The position numbers were made by a program, and so were the translations under genes. Below the pieces are notes generated by a model. That model searched no databases. It was not told the origin of the DNA and saw nothing but the letters and a program-made list of their open reading frames with translations. 32,173 nt of DNA from Phycisphaerales bacterium (lineage in GTDB: Bacteria > Planctomycetota > Phycisphaerae > Phycisphaerales > UBA1924): contig JAUXUZ010000513.1 in assembly GCA_030680655.1 (NCBI GenBank), positions 1 through 32,173 of the forward strand, written 5' to 3'. Positions 235-14,943 of this stretch are shown here, piece by piece. Every line of letters begins with the position of its first letter. Positions within the stretch are counted from its first letter, which is position 1.

Positions 235-2613
235 ATGGGTGCGACTGGAACGACGGTCATTCGTGCAACGGGCGAGCCTTCGGCGGCGACAGGGGGAGGC
301 GAAGCGGGAGTTGCCGAAGGGGGTTTTCCCGTTGAACGGTTCGTCTACGACGACAAGATCGTCAGGGCGTTCATGCTGATGACGCTGGTGTGGGGGCTGG
401 TCGCCTTCCTGGTGGGCATCATCATCGCCGTGCAGCTGGCGTTCCCGGCGGCCAACCTGGGACTCTCGTTCACCTCGTTTGGGCGCCTGCGCCCGCTGCA
501 CACCAACGCGGCGATCTTCGCGTTCGCCGGGAACGCGATCTTCGCGGCGATCTACTACAGCACCCAGCGGTTGTGCAAGGCGCGGATGTTCTCCGACAGG
601 CTCAGCTGGCTCCACTTCTGGGGCTGGCAGGCGGTGATCGTGTCGGCGGCGTTGACGCTGCCGCTGGGGATCACCCAGGGCAAGGAGTACGCCGAGCTTG
701 AGTGGCCCATCGACTTGCTGATCGCGGTCGTGTGGGTGGGGTTCTTCGGCGTCAACTTCTTCGGCACGCTGGCGCGGCGGCGCGAGCGGCACATGTACGT
801 GGCGCTGTGGTTCTACATCGCGACGATCGTGACGGTCGCGGTGCTGCACGTGTTCAACAACATCTGGGTGCCCGTCGGCTTTGTCCACCTGCTCAACACC
901 GGCGAGTTTCTCAGCGCCGAGGTGTTCATGAAGTCGTACCCCGTGTACGCGGGCGTGCAGGACGCGTTCATGCAGTGGTGGTACGGGCACAACGCCGTAG
1001 CGTTCTTCCTGACGACGCCGTTCCTGGGCATGATGTACTACTTCATGCCCAAGGCGGCCAACCGCCCGGTCTTCAGCTACCGGTTGAGCATCATCCACTT
1101 CAGGTCGCTGGTGTTCATGTACATCTGGGCCGGCCCGCACCACCTTCATTACACGGCCTTGCCCGGCTGGGCGAGCACGCTCGGCATGCTCTTCAGCGTG
1201 ATGCTGTGGATGCCCAGCTGGGGCGGGGGCATCAACGGCCTGCTGACGCTGCGCGGCGCGTGGGGGCGGGTGACGGCCGATCCGGTGCTGAAGTTCTTCG
1301 TCGTCGGCGTGACGTTCTACATGATGTCGACCTTCGAGGGGCCGATGCTCTCGATCAAGACGATCAACGCGCTCTCGCACTACACAGACTGGACGGTCGC
1401 CCACGTGCACGGCGGCACGCTCGGCTGGAACGGGTTCATGGTCTTCGGGATGATCTACTACCTGATGCCCCGCCTGTTCCAGACGCAGGTCTACAGCCAG
1501 CGGCTCGTCGGTGCGCACTTCTGGATCGCGACGATCGGCATTCTCCTGTACGTCATCCCGATCTACGTGGCTGGGCTGACGCAGGGGCTCATGTGGCGCG
1601 CGTTCGACGAGAGCGGCGTGCTGAAGTACCCGGAGTTTGTCGAGACCGTCTCGGCGGTCATCCCGTTGTACTGGGTGCGCGTTGCCGGGGGGCTGCTCTA
1701 CTTCGCCGGGGCGGTGATGTGCGCGTACAACATGCTCCTGACGTGGCGGGCGCGTCCGGCCCGGTTCAAGGAGCAGGTCCACGAAGCGCCGTCGCTGCGG
1801 TTTGTGCCCATCGTCGATCCCCGCCGCCCGGTGAGCGAGTTGACATCGAACGTCGAGTGGGGCAAGGCGTTTGACGTCTGGTCGACGGGCTGGTGGCACC
1901 GCATCTGGGAGCGCAAGCCGCTGCGGTTTACGCTGTTTGTGGCCGTCGCGGTCGGCGTGGCGTCGTTGTTTGAGATGATCCCTACGTTCCTGATCCGCTC
2001 GAACGTGCCGACGATCGCTTCGGTGAAGCCGTACACGCCGTTGGAACTGGCCGGGCGCGACATCTACGTCGCGGAGGGGTGTTACAACTGCCACTCGCAG
2101 ATGATCCGCCCGATCTACGCTGAGACCAAGCGGTACGGCGAGTACTCAAAGCCGGGTGAGTTTGTCTACGACCACCCCTTCCAGTGGGGCAGCCGGCGGA
2201 TCGGCCCGGATCTTGCGCGCGAGGGCGGTGCGAGGTCGGACCTGTGGCACCTGCTGCACCTGCGGGCACCGGCCGACACCATGCAGGGATCGATCATGCC
2301 GCGGTACCCGTGGCTTATCGCAACGGACCTTGACTTTAAGGCCGTTCAGGCACGCGTGAACGCGATGGCGATGCTCGGCGTGCCGTACGGCAAGGCCGTG
2401 CTCGACGGGGCGGCCGAGAAGATGGCACGCGAGCAGTCTGCGGCGATCGCTCAGCGGATCCGTGAGCAGGGCGCGGGCTCGCTGCCGGGCGATGTGCCGG
2501 CGGACATTGAGAACAAGCAGGTGATTGCGCTGATCGCGTACCTGCAGCGGCTCGGCACGGACATCTCGTCGCCCACCGGTGCGGCTGCTCCTGCCCCGGC
2601 CACCACCAAGTAA
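235..2613 (+). CDS. ccoNO: cbb3-type cytochrome c oxidase, fused subunits I and II (CcoN-CcoO)
   Basis: 792 aa; CcoN-like multi-TM part with conserved His motifs (HLHYTALPGW, HVHGGTLGWNG), then CcoO-like part with haem c motif CYNCHSQMIRP and GPDLAREGG. Confidence 0.95.
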   Translation: MGATGTTVIRATGEPSAATGGGEAGVAEGGFPVERFVYDDKIVRAFMLMTLVWGLVAFLVGIIIAVQLAFPAANLGLSFTSFGRLRPLHTNAAIFAFAGNAIFAAIYYSTQRLCKARMFSDRLSWLHFWGWQAVIVSAALTLPLGITQGKEYAELEWPIDLLIAVVWVGFFGVNFFGTLARRRERHMYVALWFYIATIVTVAVLHVFNNIWVPVGFVHLLNTGEFLSAEVFMKSYPVYAGVQDAFMQWWYGHNAVAFFLTTPFLGMMYYFMPKAANRPVFSYRLSIIHFRSLVFMYIWAGPHHLHYTALPGWASTLGMLFSVMLWMPSWGGGINGLLTLRGAWGRVTADPVLKFFVVGVTFYMMSTFEGPMLSIKTINALSHYTDWTVAHVHGGTLGWNGFMVFGMIYYLMPRLFQTQVYSQRLVGAHFWIATIGILLYVIPIYVAGLTQGLMWRAFDESGVLKYPEFVETVSAVIPLYWVRVAGGLLYFAGAVMCAYNMLLTWRARPARFKEQVHEAPSLRFVPIVDPRRPVSELTSNVEWGKAFDVWSTGWWHRIWERKPLRFTLFVAVAVGVASLFEMIPTFLIRSNVPTIASVKPYTPLELAGRDIYVAEGCYNCHSQMIRPIYAETKRYGEYSKPGEFVYDHPFQWGSRRIGPDLAREGGARSDLWHLLHLRAPADTMQGSIMPRYPWLIATDLDFKAVQARVNAMAMLGVPYGKAVLDGAAEKMAREQSAAIAQRIREQGAGSLPGDVPADIENKQVIALIAYLQRLGTDISSPTGAAAPAPATTK

Positions 2614-2628
2614 CGAAGGGAGTCCCCC

Positions 2629-2835
2629 GTGCGATTGAGCGACATCATGGGCAACATGGACCTTGCGATCTACCCGACACTCGCCTTGGTGCTGTTCGCC
2701 GGCGTGTTTGTGCTGGTGACGGCCAGGGCGCTGCGGACGGACCGGCGGACCCGCGCCGGTTGGGCGCGCCTGCCGCTCGAGGTGGAGGGTTCAGCACAGG
2801 CGGACCGCTCGACGGCCCAGGAGACATCACGGTGA
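2629..2835 (+). CDS. ccoQ: cbb3-type oxidase small subunit (CcoQ/FixQ-like), GTG start
   Basis: 68 aa, single TM helix, placed between ccoNO and ccoP. Confidence 0.7.
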   Translation: MRLSDIMGNMDLAIYPTLALVLFAGVFVLVTARALRTDRRTRAGWARLPLEVEGSAQADRSTAQETSR

Positions 2836-3470
2836 GCAACGAAGCAAGCACAACGCGGGCCGCCGCGCCGGACTCGCTGACCGGGCACGTCTACGACGGG
2901 ATCCAGGAGTACGACAACCCAACGCCGGGGTGGTGGACGATGATCTTCGCGCTGTCGTTCGTCTGGGCGTGCTTCTACTGGGTCAGGTACGAGTTGAACA
3001 CCACACCGCCGACGGTATTTGGTGAATGGGAGGACGACGTCGCGGAGGCGAACAGGGCGATGTTCGCGAAGCTCGGGGATCTGAAGGGGGACGAGCAGAC
3101 GCTGCTGTCGATGGGGCGCAACGCCGATTGGATGCCCGTGGGAGCGAGCATCTTCAAGGCGAACTGCGCCGCGTGCCACGGGCGACAGGGCCAGGGTGAC
3201 GTTGGATCGAACCTGACCGACGACGCTTTCAAGAACGTCAAGGTGATCACGGACATTCCCAGCGTCGTTCGCGCCGGGGCGAACAACATGGCGATGCCGG
3301 CGTGGCGGGGCCGGTTGACCGAGAACGAGATCATCCTCGTCAGCGCGTACGTCGCGTCGCTCCGCGGCACGAACGTCCCGGGACGGGTACCGGAGGGCAC
3401 GGTGATCCCCGCGTGGCCCGCGCTGGTTTCACCCGCCGCTCCGGTCATGCCGACCGGCGCCGCCAAGTAG
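2832..3470 (+). CDS. ccoP: cbb3-type oxidase subunit III (CcoP), short mono-haem form, GTG start
   Basis: FixP N-terminal motif (HVYDGIQEYDNPTPGWWTMIF) plus one cytochrome c domain (CAACHG ... MAMPAW); start at 2832 overlaps the ccoQ stop (GTGA) and gives 213 codons. Confidence 0.88.
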   Translation: MSNEASTTRAAAPDSLTGHVYDGIQEYDNPTPGWWTMIFALSFVWACFYWVRYELNTTPPTVFGEWEDDVAEANRAMFAKLGDLKGDEQTLLSMGRNADWMPVGASIFKANCAACHGRQGQGDVGSNLTDDAFKNVKVITDIPSVVRAGANNMAMPAWRGRLTENEIILVSAYVASLRGTNVPGRVPEGTVIPAWPALVSPAAPVMPTGAAK

Positions 3471-3496
3471 ACGCGGGCGAACTTTCAGGAGATGCA

Positions 3497-4948
3497 TTGG
3501 AGAGCCTGCTACAGCCCGAAGCGAGAGTCCTCTCGACGCTCAACAGCGATGGCTCGCGCCGCTGGCTGACGCCGCGTCCTTCGCGGGGCCGCTTCTGGCA
3601 CCGCCGCCGGGCGGTGGCGTACGGGTTGATCACTCTCTTCGTCGGGCTCCCCTACCTGCGGATCAACGACAAGCCGGCCGTGCTGCTCGACATCGTCCAC
3701 CGCGAGTTCACGCTCTTCGGCCGGACGTTCCTGCCCACTGACACGCCGTTGCTGGCGCTGCTGATCGTGGGCGTCTTTGTGGCCGTGTTCTTTGCGACCG
3801 CGGTCCTGGGCCGGGTGTGGTGCGGCTGGGGGTGCCCGCAGACGGTGTACCTTGAGTTCGTGTTCCGGCCGCTGGAGCGGCTGCTCCAGGGCGAGCCGGG
3901 CAGCCCGCGCAAGCCCGCGGCGTGGCTCGCTCCGTTGAAGTTGCCGATCTACCTGTTCCTCTCGGCGTTGCTGGCGCACACGTTTCTCGCCTACTTCGTC
4001 GGCATCGAAACGCTTCTTGGTTGGGTGCAGCAGTCGCCGCTGCGGCACCCGGTCCCCTTCATGGTGATGGCCGTCACAACGGGCCTGATGATGTTCGACT
4101 TCGCGTTCTTCCGCGAGCAGATGTGCATCATCGCCTGCCCGTACGGGCGAATGCAGTCGGTGATGCTCGACCGAGGCTCGCTTGTTGTTGGCTACGACCG
4201 CTCGCGCGGCGAACCCCGCGGCAAGGTCAAGCGTGGCGACGTGCGGCTGAAGATCGCAGGCGCCGACGAACCCCGCGCGGTCGGAGACTGTGTCGACTGC
4301 CTGCGCTGCGTGACGACCTGCCCCACGGGGATCGATATCCGCGACGGGCTGCAGATGGAGTGCGTGGCGTGCACACAGTGCATCGACGCCTGCGACGATG
4401 TGATGACAAAGCTCAAGCGCCCGACGGGGCTGATCCGGTACGCCTCTCAGCGGTCGATGGAGGGCAGGCCGGGCACGGCGTTCAGGCCGCGCGTCCTGAT
4501 CTACAGCGTCATGCTGCTGGTGATCATCGGGGCGCTGGCGACGCTGCTGCTGACCGCCTCACCCGTTGACGTTCGGCTGCTGCGCGGGCGCGGCCAGCCG
4601 TACTCCATCGGCACCGACGGACGGGTAATGGGCACGGTGCAACTGAAGCTGACCAACCGGACCGATCGGCCGGCCGCCTACTCGGTTCGCGTGATCCAGC
4701 CTGTGGGCGGGGAGGTGCACCTGGACGAGAACCCGATGTCCGTTGAGCCCGGCCAGATGCGCACGCAGGGCGGCTCGGTTGTCCTTGGGCGCGATGAGTT
4801 CGGCGCACTGGGGACGTGCCCGGTTCAGATCGAGATCACCGACGCGAGCGGGAGCACAAAGCGCGTGTCGTTCACCGCGCTGGGGCCGGCGGGAACCGGC
4901 CGATCAGTCGAGCCCTCGACGCCAATTCGAGAGGGAGGCCGGAAATGA
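3497..4948 (+). CDS. ccoG: cytochrome c oxidase accessory protein CcoG (FixG/RdxA), TTG start
   Basis: CGWGCPQTVYLEFVFRPLER, CVDCLRCVTTCPTGIDIRDGLQMECVACTQCIDAC; AGGAG 5 nt before TTG at 3497. Confidence 0.92.
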   Translation: MESLLQPEARVLSTLNSDGSRRWLTPRPSRGRFWHRRRAVAYGLITLFVGLPYLRINDKPAVLLDIVHREFTLFGRTFLPTDTPLLALLIVGVFVAVFFATAVLGRVWCGWGCPQTVYLEFVFRPLERLLQGEPGSPRKPAAWLAPLKLPIYLFLSALLAHTFLAYFVGIETLLGWVQQSPLRHPVPFMVMAVTTGLMMFDFAFFREQMCIIACPYGRMQSVMLDRGSLVVGYDRSRGEPRGKVKRGDVRLKIAGADEPRAVGDCVDCLRCVTTCPTGIDIRDGLQMECVACTQCIDACDDVMTKLKRPTGLIRYASQRSMEGRPGTAFRPRVLIYSVMLLVIIGALATLLLTASPVDVRLLRGRGQPYSIGTDGRVMGTVQLKLTNRTDRPAAYSVRVIQPVGGEVHLDENPMSVEPGQMRTQGGSVVLGRDEFGALGTCPVQIEITDASGSTKRVSFTALGPAGTGRSVEPSTPIREGGRK

Positions 4949-5499
4949 CGCCTCTTCCGATTTCCCCGGCGCGAGACACCTCTGGTTCTGGCAAGGGCTG
5001 GCCCGCGATGATCATCGGGCTGCTCTCGCTCAACGTCTGCATCGTCGCCGTCACCGTCGTGTGCGCAACACGCGACGCCTCGTTTGCGATCGAACCCGAC
5101 TACTACCAGAAGGCCGTCGAGTGGGACCGTTCGGCGCGCGAGCGCGACCGCGGTGTTGCGCTCGGCTGGGGCGTGTCCGTTGAGCGAGCCGACCCGCGCG
5201 AGGGTGCGCTCTTGCCCGTGCTCCGCGTCAGGGTCTCCGGGTCATCGGCCACCGGCGGCGGCGGTGCGCCACTCGACGGTGCCGAGGTACGGTGCGAGGT
5301 GTTCGCTCAGGCCAGGTCGGGGCAGCGATTCAACGTGGTCGCTATGGGAGTGGGGGGTGGCGTGTACGAGGCCGAGGTTCCGCTGACCCGCGGCGGAGTG
5401 TGGGAGGTGCGCGTGAGGGTCAAGCGCGGACCCGATGCGATGGCCTGCGTCCGCTCGCTGCTGGTGCCCGGCGCCGCGACCGAAGGGGGGGAGCGATGA
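4945..5499 (+). CDS. FixH family protein
   Basis: N-terminal TM then 'IEPDYYQKAVEWD', a FixH hallmark; ATGA overlap with ccoG. Confidence 0.82.
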   Translation: MTPLPISPARDTSGSGKGWPAMIIGLLSLNVCIVAVTVVCATRDASFAIEPDYYQKAVEWDRSARERDRGVALGWGVSVERADPREGALLPVLRVRVSGSSATGGGGAPLDGAEVRCEVFAQARSGQRFNVVAMGVGGGVYEAEVPLTRGGVWEVRVRVKRGPDAMACVRSLLVPGAATEGGER

Positions 5500-6263
5500 C
5501 CGCGCTGTTCATCGCGGTGCTGTCGGCGAGCCTGCTGGGCAGCTTGCACTGCGCGGGCATGTGCGGCGCGTTTGTCGTGCTGGCCGTGAGCGGGGATGGG
5601 TCCGCCGCATCGCGACCGTGGTCGCTCCAGATGGCCTACCACGCGGGTCGCTTGCTGACATACGTCGTCCTCGGTTTTATTGCCGGAACGATTGGCGCAA
5701 CGCTGGACCTGGGCGGATCGCTGGTGAGTGTTCAGCGCGTTGCCACCGTCGCAGCGGCCGTCACGCTCGTGGTGTTCGGTCTGCTCACGCTGCTCCGGGT
5801 GCTGGGCCTTCGCCGCGCAACGCACGCCGCCCCTGCCTGGATGGCGCGGCTGGCTCAACGCGGGCACAGGGCGGCATGGCTGCTCGCCCCGCTCCCTCGG
5901 GCGCTCGCGATCGGTCTGCTGACCACGCTCCTGCCGTGCGGCTGGCTCTACGCGTTTGTGGTGACGGCCGCGGGCACGGCACACCCGGCTACCGCGGCGG
6001 CGGTGATGGGTGTGTTCTGGCTCGGCACGCTCCCGGTGATGGCGACCATCGGCGCCGGCGCACGTCGGCTGAGCGGCCCGCTCGGCGCGCACGCGCCGGT
6101 GCTGATGGCATCGCTGCTGATCGTGGTGGGCCTGTTCACCCTCGTACACCGGGCAAACCTGATCGGGCTTCCGTTGCCAGCGGGTTCGGAGGTATCCAAC
6201 GAGTCGGGCCAGCCCCTCGTGCCGAGCGCCAGTTCACCACTCCCATGCTGCGATGACCACTGA
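5496..6263 (+). CDS. Sulfite exporter TauE/SafE-like multi-TM protein typical of cbb3 clusters
   Basis: MTALFIAVLSASLLGSLHCAGMCGAFV; multiple TM helices; ATGA overlap with fixH-like gene. Confidence 0.85.
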   Translation: MTALFIAVLSASLLGSLHCAGMCGAFVVLAVSGDGSAASRPWSLQMAYHAGRLLTYVVLGFIAGTIGATLDLGGSLVSVQRVATVAAAVTLVVFGLLTLLRVLGLRRATHAAPAWMARLAQRGHRAAWLLAPLPRALAIGLLTTLLPCGWLYAFVVTAAGTAHPATAAAVMGVFWLGTLPVMATIGAGARRLSGPLGAHAPVLMASLLIVVGLFTLVHRANLIGLPLPAGSEVSNESGQPLVPSASSPLPCCDDH

Positions 6264-8757
6264 GACACTGCAACTTGAGGCGGTCGCAGCGCCGATCACG
6301 CGGGCGGCGTGCGTGGCGTGCACGCACTGCGGGCTTCCGGTCCCACGGGGGCTTGTCCGCGCATCGGTGGATGTGCAGTTCTGCTGCGGCGGGTGCGAGG
6401 GTGCCTACGGGGTCATCAATTCGTGCGGGCTCGGCGGTTACTACGAGCTGATGGCCCGCACGGGCGACCACGGGCTGCGCTCGCTCAGGGTCAGTGAGGC
6501 CTTTGCGGAGTTCGACGACCCCGCTTTCGCCGCCGCGTACATCCGGCCCGCCGAAGCGGAGGGCCCTGTCGGAGCGAAACGGCTCGACCTTGTGCTCGAG
6601 GGCATGCACTGCGCCGCGTGCGTTTGGCTTCTAGAGCACCTCCCGCGCATCGTTCCCGGCGTTCTCTCGGCCACGGTCTACATCGGGCGTTCGACGGTGA
6701 GCGTCGCGTTCGATCCCCAGCGGGTCGCCCCGTCACGGATCGCCGGCGCTCTGGCAACGCTCGGCTACACGCCGCACGCTCCCCGCGGGAACGCGGCCCG
6801 CGACGCGGTGCGGGTCAGCGATCGGAAGCAGCTCGTGCAGATCGCCGTCGCCGGCGCGTGCGCCGGCAACGTCATGCTCTTTTCGTTCGCCCTCTACGGC
6901 GGGTTCTTCGGTGGCTCAATGTCCGCGACGATCGAGGGCGCGTTCCGGTGGCTCTCGCTCGTAGTTGGCTGCGCCAGCCTCGCCGGGCCCGGGAGGGCGT
7001 TCTTCAAGGGCGCGTGGGCGTCGATCCGCGCCGGCACACCTTCAATTGACGCGCCGATCGCACTCGCGCTTCTTGCCGGTGGTCTGATGGGGCTGTTCAA
7101 CACCGTCTTGAACCGCGGCGAGATCTACTTTGATTCGCTCACCATGCTTGTCTTCCTGCTCCTGGTGGGGCGGTTCTTTGGGGCTCGGCAGCAGCGGATC
7201 GCGGCCAGCAGCGTCGAACTGCTCTTCTGCCTTACCTCAGGCAGCGCTTGGGTTGTCGATCCACATGGCGGTCTGCGCCGGGTGCCGATCGAGGCGATCG
7301 CGGCGGGCGACGCCGTGGAAGTGCGCCCCGGTGAGAGCGTGCCAGTAGACGGCCGGGTAACCAGCGGTCGAACCAGCATCGATCAGGCGATGCTCACGGG
7401 AGAATCGAGGCCTGTGTGGATCGGTGAGGGCGGCGATGTGCTCGCTGGCACGGTGAACCAGTCGGCAACGATCCGCGTGCGAGCGACCGCGACGGGGCGC
7501 CAGACGCGCGCTGGGCGGTTGATGGAGCTCGTCGAGCGGTGCGCCACGCGACGCCCCGCGATTGTGCGATTCGCCGACTCGATCGCGCGGCCGTTTGTGG
7601 TCGTCGTCTCGATCGTGGCGGTGGCGGTCGGCGCTGCCTGGTGGTTTGTCGATCCGGCCCACGCGGTCGATCACGCGGTTGCGCTGCTCATCGTCACCTG
7701 CCCTTGTGCGCTCGGCTTTGCTGCGCCGCTCGCCGTCCACGCGGCGATCGGGCAGGGTGCACGCAGCGGCATCCTGATAAAGGACGGTGAAGTGCTCGAG
7801 CGCCTGGCCAGACCCGGCCTGATCCTGCTCGACAAGACGGGCACACTGACGGAAGGGCACCTCCGCGTGGTTTCTGCGGCGGGTGATCGCCGGGCGATGC
7901 ACCTGGCCGCCGCACTTGAACGCGAAGCGACCCACCCGATCGCCGCCGCGCTGCGCGAGGCCTACGAGACTGGGCTGACTGCTTCACGCGTCGAGCAGAC
8001 CGATCAGGGGGGCATCTGCGGCGAAGTTGACGGCCACCGTGTGGCCGTTGGCAACGAGGCCTTTGTGATGGGTCGGTCGGGACATGCTCTCCCCCGGGGT
8101 CTTGCAAACGTGATCGAGCAGGCACGGGCCGACCTCCAGACGCCCACGCTCATCGCTCTCGACGGGGTGCCCTCCGCCGTGGTTGTGCTGGGCGATCGCC
8201 TGAGGAGCGATGCGGCGGAGTCGGTCGCGGCGCTCAAGGGCGCGGGGTGGCGCGTCGGCATCCTCTCTGGCGATGAACCCGCGATCGTCGCCGGCCTGTC
8301 GGTTCGGCTCGGTCTCGATCCTGCCGACTGCAGTGGGGGCGTGGGCCCCGAGGAGAAGGCGGCGTACGTGCGGCAACGCATGACCGCTGGGCCGGTGGTC
8401 ATGGTGGGCGATGGCGTCAACGACGCCGCGGCCCTGGCAACAGCGACGGTGGGAATCGCGGTGCACGGCGGCGCCGAGGCGAGCATGGCCGCGGCCGACG
8501 CGTATGTGGCGCGGCCGGGTTTGGCGCCGATCGTCACGCTGGTGCGATCCGGCCCGCGGATGATCGCCACCGTCAAACGCATCTTCGCGGCGTCGCTGGC
8601 GTACAACATTGCCGCGGGGTCGCTCGCGGCAGCGGGCCTGATTCACCCTGTTGTTGCCGCCGTGCTCATGCCCCTCTCGTCGCTCACGGTGGTCGCTATC
8701 GCGCTACGTTCCAGGGTGATCGACGATCACGGCACCTTGAGAGAAGGAGGCGCCTGA
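6253..8757 (+). CDS. ccoI: Copper-translocating P1B-type ATPase (CcoI/FixI-like)
   Basis: N-terminal Cys-rich metal-binding motifs (CTHCGLPV, FCCGGC), GMHCAACV HMA domain, CPCALGFAAP, DKTGTLTEG, GDGVNDAAAL. Confidence 0.94.
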   Translation: MTTETLQLEAVAAPITRAACVACTHCGLPVPRGLVRASVDVQFCCGGCEGAYGVINSCGLGGYYELMARTGDHGLRSLRVSEAFAEFDDPAFAAAYIRPAEAEGPVGAKRLDLVLEGMHCAACVWLLEHLPRIVPGVLSATVYIGRSTVSVAFDPQRVAPSRIAGALATLGYTPHAPRGNAARDAVRVSDRKQLVQIAVAGACAGNVMLFSFALYGGFFGGSMSATIEGAFRWLSLVVGCASLAGPGRAFFKGAWASIRAGTPSIDAPIALALLAGGLMGLFNTVLNRGEIYFDSLTMLVFLLLVGRFFGARQQRIAASSVELLFCLTSGSAWVVDPHGGLRRVPIEAIAAGDAVEVRPGESVPVDGRVTSGRTSIDQAMLTGESRPVWIGEGGDVLAGTVNQSATIRVRATATGRQTRAGRLMELVERCATRRPAIVRFADSIARPFVVVVSIVAVAVGAAWWFVDPAHAVDHAVALLIVTCPCALGFAAPLAVHAAIGQGARSGILIKDGEVLERLARPGLILLDKTGTLTEGHLRVVSAAGDRRAMHLAAALEREATHPIAAALREAYETGLTASRVEQTDQGGICGEVDGHRVAVGNEAFVMGRSGHALPRGLANVIEQARADLQTPTLIALDGVPSAVVVLGDRLRSDAAESVAALKGAGWRVGILSGDEPAIVAGLSVRLGLDPADCSGGVGPEEKAAYVRQRMTAGPVVMVGDGVNDAAALATATVGIAVHGGAEASMAAADAYVARPGLAPIVTLVRSGPRMIATVKRIFAASLAYNIAAGSLAAAGLIHPVVAAVLMPLSSLTVVAIALRSRVIDDHGTLREGGA

Positions 8758-8994: not shown

Positions 8995-9008
8995 GACCTG
9001 GCGCGCGA

Positions 9009-9365
9009 GTGAACTTCGTGGGCGCGGGCCTCGCGGCGGCGCGGGCCATGGCGCTGGTGCACGATGTGGGCAGCAGCCCGGCGGACATGGGGCGGCAGGC
9101 GGGCGTGCTCGGCGGCTATGGCCTGCTGGCCAACAACGATTTCATCGGTCTCTTCTTTGAGGACGCGCCGCTCGCTGATGTCGGTCGCCAGGGCGGCATC
9201 GCGCCTGGTGACGGGGTGTTCGATAGCAACGACTTCGTCGTGTGTTTCGACGCCTTCGTTACCGACGCGCTTCGAGCGTCTGCCAGCGTGCAAGCGGCGA
9301 GGGACCGGGATACAGGACAAACCCCGAAAACGCCTAATGCCAACTGCATAATGCAGTTGCTTTAA
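9009..9365 (+). CDS. Small protein with two dockerin-like (EF-hand-like) repeats; free-standing module or remnant of a larger gene
   Basis: ADMGRQAGVLGGYGLLANNDFIGLFF and ADVGRQGGIAPGDGVFDSNDFVVCFDAF align with the C-terminal modules of the three downstream proteins; GTG start with no clear Shine-Dalgarno, so start is uncertain. Confidence 0.55.
   Translation: MNFVGAGLAAARAMALVHDVGSSPADMGRQAGVLGGYGLLANNDFIGLFFEDAPLADVGRQGGIAPGDGVFDSNDFVVCFDAFVTDALRASASVQAARDRDTGQTPKTPNANCIMQLL
9341..9359. repeat. 19-bp palindrome CAACTGCAT-A-ATGCAGTTG
   Basis: Perfect 9-bp arms around one central base; lies at the 3' end of the 9009 ORF. Confidence 0.7.
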
Positions 9366-9505
9366 AGGGTTTTCCCTCGGGAATCCTTGACAAGTGCTCA
9401 GGCATCGTGTCCACTCACAGGTAAGGCCGCGCCGCCATTCCGAGGGATCGGCATTCTGCCGGTCGAGGTGCGCCGCAATCACGTGCTCGCAAAGGGAGAA
9501 GTGAC

Positions 9506-11020
9506 ATGATGTCGATGAATGTGAAGAAGGGTCTGTTCGCTGCAACCGCCGCCGCCACGCTCTGCGCTGGTGCCACCGCGGACGTGGTCATTGTTCTGCC
9601 GTCGGGCAACTTCGGTGCTGGTCAGGACTTCAGCATGACGAGCCCGCCGCTCAGCGGCACGCTCACCGGCATCATCTTCTCATACGAGTACTCCAACGCC
9701 GCCGGTGCATCGTGGGCCGCCGACATGGCCGCCACAGTCGGCGCGAGCCAGTGGGGCTACTTCAACCGGTTCTGCAACGGGGCCAGCATCAACGAAGGCG
9801 CCACCGGCGCTCCGAACAATGGCACGCCGATCAATTTCACGTCTGCCACGCTCCCGATCGGATCGCCCGTCACGTACACCAACGAGACGGTACTTGTCGG
9901 CTGGGGCAATAGCTGGAACGGCGGCTCAGGCACCATGGCCAACGTCACCCTCACGCTCGTCGGCGTGAGCGTCGGTAACGGACCGACCAACCCCACCGGT
10001 CTTGGCGCGTCCACGAACTTGGGGAGCGGCTCGGTCCTTCTCACCGTCACGACCTTCGGCGGCATCAATCCCGCCAGCACGGGCATCTCCGTCAACGGCG
10101 ACCTGTCGGCGCTGGGCGGCGGCGGCTCGGTGGCGTTCTTTGACAACGGCACCAACGGTGACGTGACGGCCCTTGACGGCGTGTTCTCGTACACAACCAG
10201 CGTCGGCAGCCTCGCCGATGGCGACGCGTATTCAGTGGGCTTCACCGTGTCTGACGCTGAATCGCGATCCTCAAGCGGCGCGATCAACGGGACAGTTGAC
10301 CTGGCGGGCCAGACGCTCGCGACGGCGGCTGTTCCGAGCGGCGCCGGCGCGCTGGATGCGATCTCGGGCTTCTTCGGGCCCAACGACGTCGACATTTACA
10401 AGATCAATATCTGCGACGCCGCGAACTTCTCGGCGACAACCTTCGGCGGCACCACCGCCGACACGCAGTTGTTCCTCTTCAACACCGACGGCTTTGGCGT
10501 CGTGGCTAACGACGATGTACCAGACGGTCTTCCCGGCGACGCCACGCTGCAGTCAACCATTACCAGCGCCCTGATCCCCGGCAACGGTGACTACTACTTG
10601 GCGGTGACCCGCTACAACACCGATCCGGTCGATGCCGGCGCGGCTCTGATCTGGGCGAACACCCCCTTCAACACCGAGCGATCGCCCGACGGCGCCGGCG
10701 CGGGGAACCCCCTCGCGGCCTGGACCGGCGCATCGGCCGGCACCTCGACCTACACCATCGCGTTCACAGGCACGTGCTACCCGTCGAGCGGCCCGATCTG
10801 CGGCCTGGCCGATGTGGGCGGCGTCGGCGGTGCGCCGGGCGCTGACAACCACCTGGACAACAACGATTTCGTTGTGTTCATCGACTACTTCTTCTCGCAG
10901 AACCCGATCGCCGACCAGGGCTCAACCGGCGGCGTTGCGGGTGCCGACGGGGTGTACGACAACAACGACTTCATCGTCTTCATCGATAACTTCTTCAACG
11001 CCCCGGCCTCGTGCCGCTGA
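9506..11020 (+). CDS. Secreted modular protein A: signal peptide, variable N-terminal domain, Ig-like segment, PPC-like domain, C-terminal dockerin-like module
   Basis: Signal-peptide-like N-terminus (KKGLFAATAAATLCAGATA); NDVDIYKINICD...GDYYLAVTRYN PPC-like domain; terminal CGLADVGG...DNNDFVVFIDYFF...DNNDFIVFIDNFFNAPASCR. Confidence 0.9.
   Translation: MMSMNVKKGLFAATAAATLCAGATADVVIVLPSGNFGAGQDFSMTSPPLSGTLTGIIFSYEYSNAAGASWAADMAATVGASQWGYFNRFCNGASINEGATGAPNNGTPINFTSATLPIGSPVTYTNETVLVGWGNSWNGGSGTMANVTLTLVGVSVGNGPTNPTGLGASTNLGSGSVLLTVTTFGGINPASTGISVNGDLSALGGGGSVAFFDNGTNGDVTALDGVFSYTTSVGSLADGDAYSVGFTVSDAESRSSSGAINGTVDLAGQTLATAAVPSGAGALDAISGFFGPNDVDIYKINICDAANFSATTFGGTTADTQLFLFNTDGFGVVANDDVPDGLPGDATLQSTITSALIPGNGDYYLAVTRYNTDPVDAGAALIWANTPFNTERSPDGAGAGNPLAAWTGASAGTSTYTIAFTGTCYPSSGPICGLADVGGVGGAPGADNHLDNNDFVVFIDYFFSQNPIADQGSTGGVAGADGVYDNNDFIVFIDNFFNAPASCR
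10775..11020 (+). repeat. Dockerin-like C-terminal module, copy A (246 bp)
   Basis: Same length and nearly the same sequence as 12689-12934 and 14698-14943. Confidence 0.9.
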
Positions 11021-11051
11021 ACCGCGGCTGACTTGAACCCGTCCCCCGTTG

Positions 11052-11088
11052 CGCCCCGCGCGGCTCCGGCTGCGCGGGGCGTTTTCTT
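11052..11088 (+). terminator. Rho-independent terminator of gene A
   Basis: CGCCCCGCGC - GGCTCCGGCT - GCGCGGGGCG followed by TTTTCTT. Confidence 0.88.
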
Positions 11089-11107
11089 GCGGCCAAGAGA
11101 GGAATTT

Positions 11108-11124
11108 GCACTACGCAGTAGTGC
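11108..11124. repeat. Inverted repeat GCACTAC-GCA-GTAGTGC
   Basis: Perfect 7-bp arms; overlapping alternative pairing CTACGC-AGTAGT-GCGTAG at 11111-11128. Confidence 0.6.
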
Positions 11125-11240
11125 GTAGGGCGGGTAGTGGGCAGATGATTAAGTTTAAATTAGCCTTCTAATTGCCGCACGGGCATGGCCATTCGTCGTT
11201 TCTTGAGTTCTACTTGAGCGTCCGGTGCGGCGTGTGTCGC

Positions 11241-11260
11241 GCGGCGGTATTCACCGCCGC
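11241..11260 (+). promoter_or_regulatory. Leader hairpin of gene B (GCGGCGG-TATTCA-CCGCCGC)
   Basis: Perfect 7-bp stem upstream of the start; counterpart in the gene C leader at 13129-13148. Confidence 0.5.
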
Positions 11261-11311
11261 GGCTCCTCTCTGGAGTCGCTGCCCGGTTTCGCTTGTAACA
11301 GGGAGAAATGA

Positions 11312-12934
11312 ATGAAAACGAGACTTATGGCCCTTGCTCTGGCTGCGTGCGCAGGAACCGTGTTCGCCAGCCCTCGCGAGTCGCAGGTTGCGCCGACGCC
11401 GCTTGATAGCGACGATCCGGGTGGGACGTTCAACATGACGTTCGCCAACAGCGACGGCGGCGGCGCATATACGGCCTTCCGCGTTCGCTTCACTGGCATG
11501 CTGACGTCGAACGTCGGGGGAACGTACGCCCAGGAAGTCGCTATCGATGTCACGCCCCCGGGTGGCGCGGTGCAGACGTTCCTTCTCGGAGCAGGCTTTA
11601 CCTACTCGACTCAATCCTTCGATATCGTGCGCACCCTCGCCGCCCCGGTCGCGACCGGTGGCACATGGACGTTTGCCTTGCGTGAGACCTATGACGACGC
11701 GGCCGGCATTCCCGATTCGACCGTCTCAGACCTGGTCGTCACGCTTGACGACGCGGCTGCTGAGCCCCCCACGCACACCAATCTCGGCACGCTGGTTGAC
11801 GGCGTGCCCGTCTCACAGGAGGTTGTCCTCGAAGCGGGCGAGGTGAAGTGGTTCAAGGTCACCACCGCCGAAGCCTCCGAGGCGGCGCACCGCAAGCTCG
11901 ACATCAACACGCTCGCTTCGACCTTTGGCGGCGACAGCGAGATCGGCGTCTACACCAGCACCGGCACCGGGCTCTTCGCCAACGACGACGCGGGCGGCGG
12001 GCTCTACAGCCAGCTCACCTTTGGTGAAGAAGGAGCGGCCGGGACGCTCGCTGCCGGCACGTACTTTGTTGCCGTCAGCTCGTACAACGCGACGTTCCTT
12101 GTTGCCGACTGGACCGTAACGAGCACGGGTCCCGGCGGCACGTTCCAGCTTACCCTGGCTCAGACCGTCTTTACGCCTCCCGTGGGCATCTGGAGCGAGT
12201 CGGCTGACGGTGGCGGCGACGCGGGCCAGGAACTCGCTAGCGCGCAGGTTGTGAGCGGCACGGGCGACCTTCCCCGAATCACCGGCTCGTTCGGTGTTGA
12301 CGATGTCGACATCTACAAGATCAACATCTGCGACACCGTCAGCTTCAGCGCCAGTACTGCTGGCACAGCGCCCGTCCTTGACACACAGTTGTTCCTGTTC
12401 AATGCGGACGGCACCGGCGTCGTGATGAACGACGACAACACCCTCGGCGGCGGCGGCCTCTGGTCGGCGCTGGACAACACCACCGGCTTCATCGCCGCGG
12501 CCGGTGACTACTACCTCGCCATCAGCCGCTACGACATCGACCCCACCAGCGGTGGGCTTGAGATCTGGGCCGACACCCCCTTCGCGGCCCAGCGTCAGCC
12601 CGACGGCGCCAACGCCGCCGGCATCCTTGACGGCTGGATCGGTGCCAACGCGGCCACCGGCAACTACCGCATCGACTTCACCGGCACCTGCCGCGTCGGC
12701 GCGGGACCGGCCTGCGGTCTGGCCGATGTGGGCGGCGTCGGCGGTGCGCCGGGTGCTGACAACCACCTCGACAACAACGACTTCGTCGTCTTCATCGACT
12801 ACTTCTTCACCCAGAACCCCATCGCCGACCAGGGCTCGACCGGCGGTGCGCCCGGCGCTGACGGCTCGTACGACAACAACGACTTCATCGTCTTCATCGA
12901 CAACTTCTTCAACGCCCCCGCCTCGTGCCGCTGA
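11312..12934 (+). CDS. Secreted modular protein B: signal peptide, possible P-domain-like N-terminus, two PPC-like domains, C-terminal dockerin-like module
   Basis: MKTRLMALALAACAGTVFA signal peptide; WKYF-type PPC-like segment VKWFKVTTAE...LFANDD; second PPC-like VDIYKINICD...; CGLADVGG...DNNDF repeats ...ASCR; GGGAG just before the ATG region. Confidence 0.88.
   Translation: MKTRLMALALAACAGTVFASPRESQVAPTPLDSDDPGGTFNMTFANSDGGGAYTAFRVRFTGMLTSNVGGTYAQEVAIDVTPPGGAVQTFLLGAGFTYSTQSFDIVRTLAAPVATGGTWTFALRETYDDAAGIPDSTVSDLVVTLDDAAAEPPTHTNLGTLVDGVPVSQEVVLEAGEVKWFKVTTAEASEAAHRKLDINTLASTFGGDSEIGVYTSTGTGLFANDDAGGGLYSQLTFGEEGAAGTLAAGTYFVAVSSYNATFLVADWTVTSTGPGGTFQLTLAQTVFTPPVGIWSESADGGGDAGQELASAQVVSGTGDLPRITGSFGVDDVDIYKINICDTVSFSASTAGTAPVLDTQLFLFNADGTGVVMNDDNTLGGGGLWSALDNTTGFIAAAGDYYLAISRYDIDPTSGGLEIWADTPFAAQRQPDGANAAGILDGWIGANAATGNYRIDFTGTCRVGAGPACGLADVGGVGGAPGADNHLDNNDFVVFIDYFFTQNPIADQGSTGGAPGADGSYDNNDFIVFIDNFFNAPASCR
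12689..12934 (+). repeat. Dockerin-like C-terminal module, copy B (246 bp)
   Basis: Same length and nearly the same protein sequence as copies A and C. Confidence 0.9.
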
Positions 12935-12966
12935 TCCGCGGCTGAGCTGAGACAGTCTTCCTTTGG

Positions 12967-13003
12967 GCCCCGCGCGGCTTGTGCCGCGCGGGGCTCTTTG
13001 TTT
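12967..13003 (+). terminator. Rho-independent terminator of gene B
   Basis: GCCCCGCGCGGC - TTGT - GCCGCGCGGGGC followed by TCTTTGTTT. Confidence 0.9.
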
Positions 13004-13031
13004 GGCGGCAAACGTACGGGATTTGTTTGGA

Positions 13032-13061
13032 GCATTCGGTAAAGAATTCCTCATCGAATGC
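13032..13061. promoter_or_regulatory. 30-bp interrupted dyad upstream of gene C (GCATTCG-N5-GAATTC-N5-CGAATGC)
   Basis: Perfect 7-bp outer arms and a palindromic centre with equal spacers. Confidence 0.45.
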
Positions 13062-13128
13062 GACCTAGGGGTATTGCTACCGGGCCGGTCCTGTGGTCTA
13101 GTAGAGAGGTTCGTGCTGGTGGGATCAC

Positions 13129-13148
13129 GCGGCGGTACTCATCGCTGC
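13129..13148 (+). promoter_or_regulatory. Leader hairpin of gene C (GCGGCGG-TACTCA-TCGCTGC, with G-U pairs)
   Basis: Same arm and near-identical loop as the gene B hairpin; differences in the 3' arm keep pairing through G-U wobbles. Confidence 0.45.
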
Positions 13149-13182
13149 GGCCAGTGCGGTAGTTCTCAAGGGAGGCCTCATC

Positions 13183-14943
13183 ATGCAATCGAAGATGTTT
13201 GTACTCGCGTTGGCGGTCGCTGCGGGAAGCGCGTTCGCTCAGAACTCGATCGTGGACAACATCGCCGGAACGTTCGTCGATATATCGACAATGGGGAGCG
13301 TCAACAGCCTCGTTGCGTTTGATTCTGACGACGCCAGCTACGCGTTTACCAGTTCAGTGACCAACGGGATCTTCGCGTCAACGACGGTCCGCGTCTGTAC
13401 GAACGGTTACGCCCAGTGGGGCGGCGCGACGGGGGGGACGGCCTATTTCAATGGCGCGATCGCCAGCGGCACGGCCAGCCCGATGGCACCTGTTGATAGC
13501 CAGTGCCTCATGCCGCTTTGGGATGACCAGTACGTGCGTCCCGGTGGAGGGGCCAACCTCCACTGGATTGAAGGACCGGCGTCAAGCTTTGGCCTGCCTT
13601 CAGCGGCCGGCAACGTGCTGATCATCCAGTGGACGAACGTCGAGCACTACTTTACCTCGACGGGGCTGGCGACGTATCAGATCCAGGTGTTCCAGAACCC
13701 ACTCGGCGGGAGCGTCGCCGCGCAGATGCTCTACCAGAACGTGAACTTCGGCAACGCCGCCTGGGACAACGGGGCAAGCGCGACCATTGGCTTTGCCTCG
13801 GGCACGACCGGCGGCGCTGCGTCAATCAACAACGTGCAGTGGGCGTTCAACAGCGCTGGGAGCGTCAACAACGGCGACGTGTTGAGCCTGCTGATCCCCA
13901 CCGCCTCGGTGCCGCCGTCAGGCGTCGGCTCGTCTGTTGCGGCCGGTTCGAGCGTGCTGCTGCGCGTGAGCACCGCGTCCGGCTTTAACCCCAGCAGCTC
14001 GAGCATCACGGTGACCGGCAACCTGAGCACGAGCATGGGTGGGCCCGCGTCGGTCGCGTTCCAGGATGATGGCCTGAACGGTGACGTCACCGCCAGCGAC
14101 GGCACGTATTCCTACCTCGCTTCATACCCGTCGGGCACCACGGACGGAACGGCGTTTACCGTCCCGTTTACGGTTACGGACAATCTCGCACGCAGCAGCA
14201 GTGGCAGCATCAACTTCACTGCCGATACGGCCGGTGATCTTCCTGCGATGGCGGCGGTCCTGCCTGGCAGCGGCGACCTCTCGTCGATCACGGGTGTGCT
14301 GGGCGCCAACGACGTGGACATGTACAAGATCAACATCTGCGACATGGCGAACTTCAGCGCCACGACGCAGAACACGGCGCCGACGATCGACACCCAGCTG
14401 TTCCTGTTCAACGCCGACGGCACCGGCGTGGTCATGAACGACGACAACCCCGCAGGCACCGGCGGTCTGTGGTCGCGCATCGACAACACCACCGGGTTTA
14501 TTGTGGCCAACGGTACGTACTACCTGGCGATCAGCCGCTACGACATGGACCCCACCAGCGGGGGTCTTGAGATCTGGGCCGACACTCCTTTCGGCGCTCA
14601 GCGTCAGCCCGACGGCGCTAACTCAAGCGGCATCGTGGACGCTTGGAACGGGGCCAACGCCAACACCAACGGCTACCTGATCGAACTGACGGGCACGTGC
14701 TACCCGTCGAGCGGGCCGATCTGCGGCCTGGCCGACGTCGGCGGCGTGGGCGGTGCGCCGGGCGCTGACAACCACCTGGACAACAACGACTTCGTCGTGT
14801 TCATCGACTACTTCTTCAACCAGAATCCCATCGCCGACCAGGGCTCAACCGGCGGGGTTGCCGGCGCCGACGGCGTGTACGACAACAACGACTTCATCGT
14901 CTTCATCGACAACTTCTTCAACGCCCCCGCCTCCTGCCGCTGA
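13183..14943 (+). CDS. Secreted modular protein C: signal peptide, nidogen-like N-terminal domain, Ig-like segment, PPC-like domain, C-terminal dockerin-like module
   Basis: MQSKMFVLALAVAAGSAFAQ signal peptide; NVLIIQWTNVEHY...TYQIQVFQNP...ATIGFASG nidogen-like; NDVDMYKINICD...; CGLADVGG...DNNDF repeats ...ASCR; GGGAGG upstream of ATG. Confidence 0.9.
   Translation: MQSKMFVLALAVAAGSAFAQNSIVDNIAGTFVDISTMGSVNSLVAFDSDDASYAFTSSVTNGIFASTTVRVCTNGYAQWGGATGGTAYFNGAIASGTASPMAPVDSQCLMPLWDDQYVRPGGGANLHWIEGPASSFGLPSAAGNVLIIQWTNVEHYFTSTGLATYQIQVFQNPLGGSVAAQMLYQNVNFGNAAWDNGASATIGFASGTTGGAASINNVQWAFNSAGSVNNGDVLSLLIPTASVPPSGVGSSVAAGSSVLLRVSTASGFNPSSSSITVTGNLSTSMGGPASVAFQDDGLNGDVTASDGTYSYLASYPSGTTDGTAFTVPFTVTDNLARSSSGSINFTADTAGDLPAMAAVLPGSGDLSSITGVLGANDVDMYKINICDMANFSATTQNTAPTIDTQLFLFNADGTGVVMNDDNPAGTGGLWSRIDNTTGFIVANGTYYLAISRYDMDPTSGGLEIWADTPFGAQRQPDGANSSGIVDAWNGANANTNGYLIELTGTCYPSSGPICGLADVGGVGGAPGADNHLDNNDFVVFIDYFFNQNPIADQGSTGGVAGADGVYDNNDFIVFIDNFFNAPASCR
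14698..14943 (+). repeat. Dockerin-like C-terminal module, copy C (246 bp)
   Basis: Protein sequence differs from copy A at one visible residue (N for S before QNPIADQ). Confidence 0.9.

Follow-up and report, generated by a model that had tools for sequence, protein, structure and literature searches.

The stretch analysed here, hereafter the window, is a 32,173-nucleotide stretch of contig JAUXUZ010000513.1 of a Phycisphaerales bacterium (assembly GCA_030680655.1), and its forward strand carries three consecutive genes for secreted proteins of 504, 540 and 586 amino acids (proteins 1, 2 and 3; 9506..11020, 11312..12934 and 13183..14943, respectively), each of which ends in the same cysteine-bounded module. 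All three proteins start with a signal peptide, and all three matched the family model NF041540 (dockerin_GC; 'GC-type dockerin domain-anchored protein') with 52.5, 48.3 and 49.6 bits (expectation values, E, of 1e-12 to 5e-14), the curated cut-off being 29 bits. The modules, taken from the first cysteine to the C-terminus and made of two repeats, lie at 10799..11017, 12713..12931 and 14722..14940; each measures 73 residues, or about 78 when the common lead-in is included, and they are 91-99% identical to each other in protein sequence and end in NAPASCR. A preliminary description of this region, made from the letters of the DNA, had proposed three consecutive genes for secreted proteins with a shared C-terminal module of equal length and had pointed to a 'GC-type dockerin' family, and all of this was borne out. 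The module family is already named, and it is its behaviour, not its existence, that is new: the window modules agree with NF041540 in a score above the cut-off, C-terminal place, two repeats and terminal cysteines, whereas the library supplies a name without a function or partner, and the present analysis adds the extended loops and the dialects of single genomes. The term GC-type dockerin was not found in the collection of papers that was searched.

It had also been held that the N-termini of the three proteins differ completely, which turned out to be incorrect. About 150 residues preceding the module form an FDP/PPC-like domain that is homologous among all three proteins; it was located in protein 1 by alignment at 10298..10783 (a PF04151 match with E 0.0016 that falls short of the gathering score), and in proteins 2 and 3 it was matched as FDP_fam (NF038127) at 12281..12688 (40.2 bits, cut-off 29) and 14284..14625 (30.7 bits). 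Proteins 1 and 3 furthermore have a choice-of-anchor X region in common (choice_anch_X, NF041940), at 10133..10204 (residues 210-233, 25.1 bits with a cut-off of 25) and 14056..14133 (residues 292-317, 26.3 bits). At the DNA level, the C-terminal ~640-730 base pairs (bp) of the three genes are 73-83% identical. Two proteins with the window's module subtype, including the NAPASCR ending, were observed on a separate contig of the same genome (G000:C371; L018:4093-7499), and their modules share 87-94% of residues with the window modules, the DNA being about 90% alike.

The small open reading frame (ORF) that precedes the three genes (9009-9365) had been counted as a further member of the cluster; it is instead a decayed relic of the module and not an independent small member. 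The relic (8997..9260, forward strand) is 85% identical over 273 bp of DNA to G000:C16:473-745, where a different dockerin gene ends (contig C16, locus L021). It shows a 9-bp deletion and a loss of acidic loop residues (DGLLDNYD to YGLLANND), it lacks the flanking cysteines, with the homology ending before the C-terminal one, and its NF041540 score of 23.9 bits falls under the cut-off.

The number of copies per genome, a check suggested in the preliminary description, was determined by profile search; 119 NF041540 matches, 114 of them above the cut-off, were obtained in the window's own genome (G000; 3.4 Mb, 593 contigs, 87% complete). Since only three of the roughly 115 genomic copies lie in the window, there is nothing special about the cluster as a locus. 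No NF041540 match was found in 14 control genomes, and in an even draw across the phylum high counts were confined to the family of the window's genome (f1). Among 41 relatives, most f1 genomes and all f87 genomes carried from 16 to more than 110 copies and a minority of f1 genomes 3-12, while the f2, f3 and f89 genomes of the same order had none. Related loci in wider genome contigs numbered three, one on an uncultured Phycisphaerales metagenome-assembled genome and two (L035 and L037) on a Chloroflexi-binned contig, JACPOP010000032.1, which is possibly a misbinned Phycisphaerales contig; a search of viral contigs returned none.

The position of the module was surveyed in 59 distinct ORFs (63 matches) from 28 genome stretches and the window. 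There was one module per ORF in 63 of the 63 matches, and the module ended 0-6 residues from the end of the frame in 58 of the 59 ORFs, the sole exception being the window relic. Of the 42 module proteins whose start is complete, 37 begin like a signal peptide by a crude, simple rule, compared with 17 of 37 other long ORFs. Two unusual arrangements were seen. The protein encoded by L037:3368-4108 terminates in half a GC dockerin, that is, one repeat with a cysteine at each end (GCRADLGQGGGLPGADGQLNNNDFIVFIEYFLSYTGCP), and a single 286-residue frame at G000:C504:497-859 contains a Dockerin_1 match followed directly by a GC-dockerin match.

Both repeats of the module follow the consensus A-D-x-G-x-x-G-G-x-x-G-x-D-G-x-x-D-N-N-D-F-[IV]-V-F-I-D-x-F-F over the 59 ORFs, with the acidic loop positions at least 81% and mostly more than 95% conserved. 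The calcium loop of a classical dockerin reads D1-x-N3-x-D5-G-x-x-N9-x-x-D12 (DxNxDGxxxxxD). When the two were compared by eye, about 7 extra residues were seen between positions 3 and 5 of each loop in this genus; the loops of the window read D-x-G-(about 7 inserted)-D-[GN]-x-x-D-N-N-D and thus depart from the canonical 12-residue loop. Two genomes of other genera (G095 and G262) have canonical DxDxDG loops with the same cysteines at both ends, the modules of G095 reading CRADLDGDGELT..DFL..ADLDGDGSLTILDFL..GC, and three modules of G262 (C38:47514, C62:137093 and C33:14415) matched both NF041540 and the Pfam model Dockerin_1 (PF00404) at one place. Because these sister-genera modules have classical loops and match both models, the module is, as judged from its sequence, a dockerin derivative. 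It is like type I dockerins (PF00404) in its two loop-helix repeats, but it differs from them in the flanking cysteine pair, the strictly C-terminal place, the loop insertion and the lack of any cohesin found here; PF00404 itself was matched by none of the window proteins and by one of 55 module proteins of their genome.

The two flanking cysteines behave as a pair. The terminal cysteine was found in 54 of the 59 modules. Once the relic and two copies truncated at contig ends had been set aside, 56 modules of the window's genome remained; both cysteines were present in 51, neither in 3, only the last in 2 and only the first in none (hypergeometric p about 4e-4). In six further genomes belonging to the family, both were present in 95 of 100 modules and only the last in 5. 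Flanking cysteines are thus gained or lost together, with few exceptions. L026 and L191, related proteins from different genomes whose front parts are 66% identical, each lack the first as well as the last cysteine. Since the cysteines occur as a pair, a disulfide clasp between the ends of the module is probably the simplest account.

The modules were further compared within and between genomes, using 158 modules; they came from seven genomes, of which four belong to one genus, that of the window, and those from other genomes were the best-scoring ones and not a random sample. The nearest neighbour of a module was in the same genome in 154 of the 158 cases, and mean module identity was 0.56-0.72 within genomes and 0.22-0.60 between them. 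On a FastTree module tree the genome label changed 7 times, where the minimum is 6 and the shuffled mean 91, and five genomes formed exact clades. Reciprocal-best counterparts between G000 and G247 or G248, paired by their front parts, had front parts 38-66% identical and modules 0.32-0.44 identical, whereas paralogous modules within G000 reached 0.56-0.66; in 7 of 7 counterpart pairs every own-genome module was closer than the module of the counterpart, with counterparts defined among the fetched loci only, such that weaker pairs may be paralogs. Synonymous codon identity was 0.682, compared with 0.657 after shuffling within amino acids, and gene-specific marks, namely a missing cysteine pair and a spacer longer by one residue, were retained between counterparts. 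Because there is little synonymous excess and such marks are kept, recent gene conversion or wholesale copying is not the main cause of the likeness within genomes. All tags of a genome change together and each species has its own version, so that the pattern probably reflects selection by one common partner per genome.

The front parts joined to the module are very mixed. Most of those in the 55 module proteins scanned matched no family; the matches included reprolysin-like peptidases, glucose/sorbosone-type pyrroloquinoline quinone (PQQ) dehydrogenases, MauG-like di-haem enzymes and phytase-like proteins, and further PA14, beta-helix, FG-GAP, several choice-of-anchor domains and lectin-like folds. 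FDP proteins of relatives end in various ways, with a PTPGA...RRRR exosortase-like tail (also in the window's genome, L046), with PEP-CTERM (L054) or with a GC dockerin (L043 and L050). Because the same front domains elsewhere carry exosortase-like, PEP-CTERM or dockerin ends, the module behaves as one of several interchangeable C-terminal tags. These alternative anchors, together with the C-terminal position, the single module per ORF and the mixed fronts, give good support to the earlier proposal that the proteins share an attachment tag which can be exchanged.

We favour, with a probability of about 0.55, the reading that this cysteine-clasped dockerin variant serves as a C-terminal tag by which its carriers attach to a single partner in each genome, with which it co-evolves. 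The tag would consist of two loop-helix repeats with ends probably clasped by a disulfide and, in this genus, a long insertion in each calcium loop. It is borne once, at the very end, by about 115 secreted proteins per genome that are for the most part unrelated, and a single common partner of that genome would capture and display them. Such a partner would not be a recognisable cohesin and would differ between species, with the result that the whole set of tags would change in step. In this account the lone partner and the attachment to the surface, like the disulfide and the binding of calcium, are inferred.

Several observations weigh against this reading. No partner was found: the Pfam cohesin model gave no match in the window's genome (87% complete) and genus and none in 38 of the 41 genomes, a custom profile built from six cohesins of these genomes gave none in this genus, and inspection of 23 long ORFs neighbouring modules revealed no scaffold gene. 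The AlphaFold2 model of the module was poor (pLDDT, the predicted local distance difference test, 61.8), with helices at 26-38 and 60-72 that have no better confidence than this, and a second structure model was poor as well (pLDDT 42.9); a Foldseek search with the former gave no match, and neither did a sequence search against solved structures. The choice of best-scoring modules and of counterparts among fetched loci belongs here, as do the modules that keep only the last cysteine. Some recent duplication or conversion is indicated by a slight surplus of identical synonymous codons and by 27 of 1653 module pairs with z > 3, where about 2 are expected, and older conversion may also be a source of the likeness within genomes.

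The module could instead act as a sorting signal at the C-terminus. A single machine for secretion or anchoring, of a type IX- or exosortase-like kind, would then read the module, which would perhaps be cut off or attached afterwards, and the machine itself would be the 'partner'. The strictly C-terminal single copy, the very mixed cargo, the concerted evolution by genome and the exosortase-like tails on relatives with the same front domain would all suit this. However, the module resembles a folded two-repeat dockerin, canonical in other genera and unlike short exosortase tails, and an exosortase is not the reader, because exosortases are present in 40 of the 41 genomes with or without the module; we consider a sorting signal unlikely. 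PEP-CTERM/exosortase tails and other choice-of-anchor tails resemble the module in that they can stand in for one another as C-terminal tags behind the same front domains, but PEP-CTERM/exosortase tails are short, hydrophobic-plus-arginine and enzyme-processed, whereas the module looks like a folded two-repeat domain. Likewise unlikely is a conventional cohesin-dockerin complex with cohesins too divergent to be detected. Its nearest precedent is the 'planctosome' of Nemodlikiaceae, for which peptidases on a cohesin scaffold with few components were proposed (PMC6461901), and the two systems are alike in having non-cellulosomal dockerins in Phycisphaerae and reprolysin-like cargo; 2 of the 55 module proteins match M12B reprolysin-like peptidases as in that model, and the canonical loops in sister genera fit it too. 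The planctosome relies on cohesins, however, and has few components, while here there are about 115 tagged proteins and the cohesin searches in this genus came back empty. One ORF with three cohesins (L012, G256:C283) has a nuoB-like gene as its neighbour on a contig of 3.6 kb and is, in our judgement, possibly contamination.

If there were no partner at all, the module could be a stabilising C-terminal cap, its sameness within a genome having come from old duplication plus gene conversion. The module pairs that exceed the expected synonymous identity and the close likeness of the window and C371 copies point in this direction, but most pairs have no synonymous excess (on average 0.682 versus 0.657), and counterparts keep the marks of their gene even though dozens of positions change over with the genome, which makes a cap quite improbable. 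Hardly credible, and already largely refuted, is an enzyme scaffold for polysaccharide breakdown of the kind to which the preliminary description had compared the cluster. The membership in the dockerin family would fit a cellulosome-like system, but no glycoside hydrolase was present among the families listed for the 55 module proteins, no classical cohesin occurs in the genus and the 23 neighbouring ORFs inspected hold no scaffold; since the known front domains are mixed and no cellulase family was seen, the comparison to a cellulosome does not stand.

More tentatively, the attachment tag could belong to a cohesin-free surface display, in which as many as a hundred or more secreted proteins of each species, unrelated to one another, would share a clasped dockerin tag and one fast-changing receptor, and receptor and tags would co-evolve as a species dialect by parallel substitution and not by gene conversion. 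If this were true, one partner driving more than 100 unlinked modules to change in step would be a clean example from nature of one-to-many co-evolution. The dialects would then lead to the partner, whose differences between species would have to follow the pattern of the modules. The display of much of the secretome in these bacteria would be explained as well, and a dockerin closed by a disulfide would be of use as a part in engineering.

A replacement of PEP-CTERM by the GC dockerin had been suggested by PF07589, which had no match in the window's genome and 30-123 in most f2/f3 genomes. This was ruled out, because the family has an exosortase-like tail of its own, found 36 times in the window's genome, and exosortases in 40 of the 41 genomes. 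The tail, PTPGAAALLGLGGLAxxRRRR, is PEP-CTERM-like and was seen on contig C317 of G000 (L046) and in L038, L047, L056, L059 and L062; no NCBIfam or Pfam tail model named it in the proteins scanned, and other family members carry 9-53 copies. In the window's genome the 36 tails are separate from the module matches, and module proteins end in the dockerin and not in a PEP-CTERM-like tail, the module thus running beside the exosortase-like tails and not instead of them. One protein of G077 (L054) has a dockerin-like unit followed directly by a PEP-CTERM tail. Directly upstream of the module genes, the window (235-8757) carries an ordinary set of genes comprising a cbb3 oxidase ccoNO fusion, ccoG and a copper-type P-ATPase.

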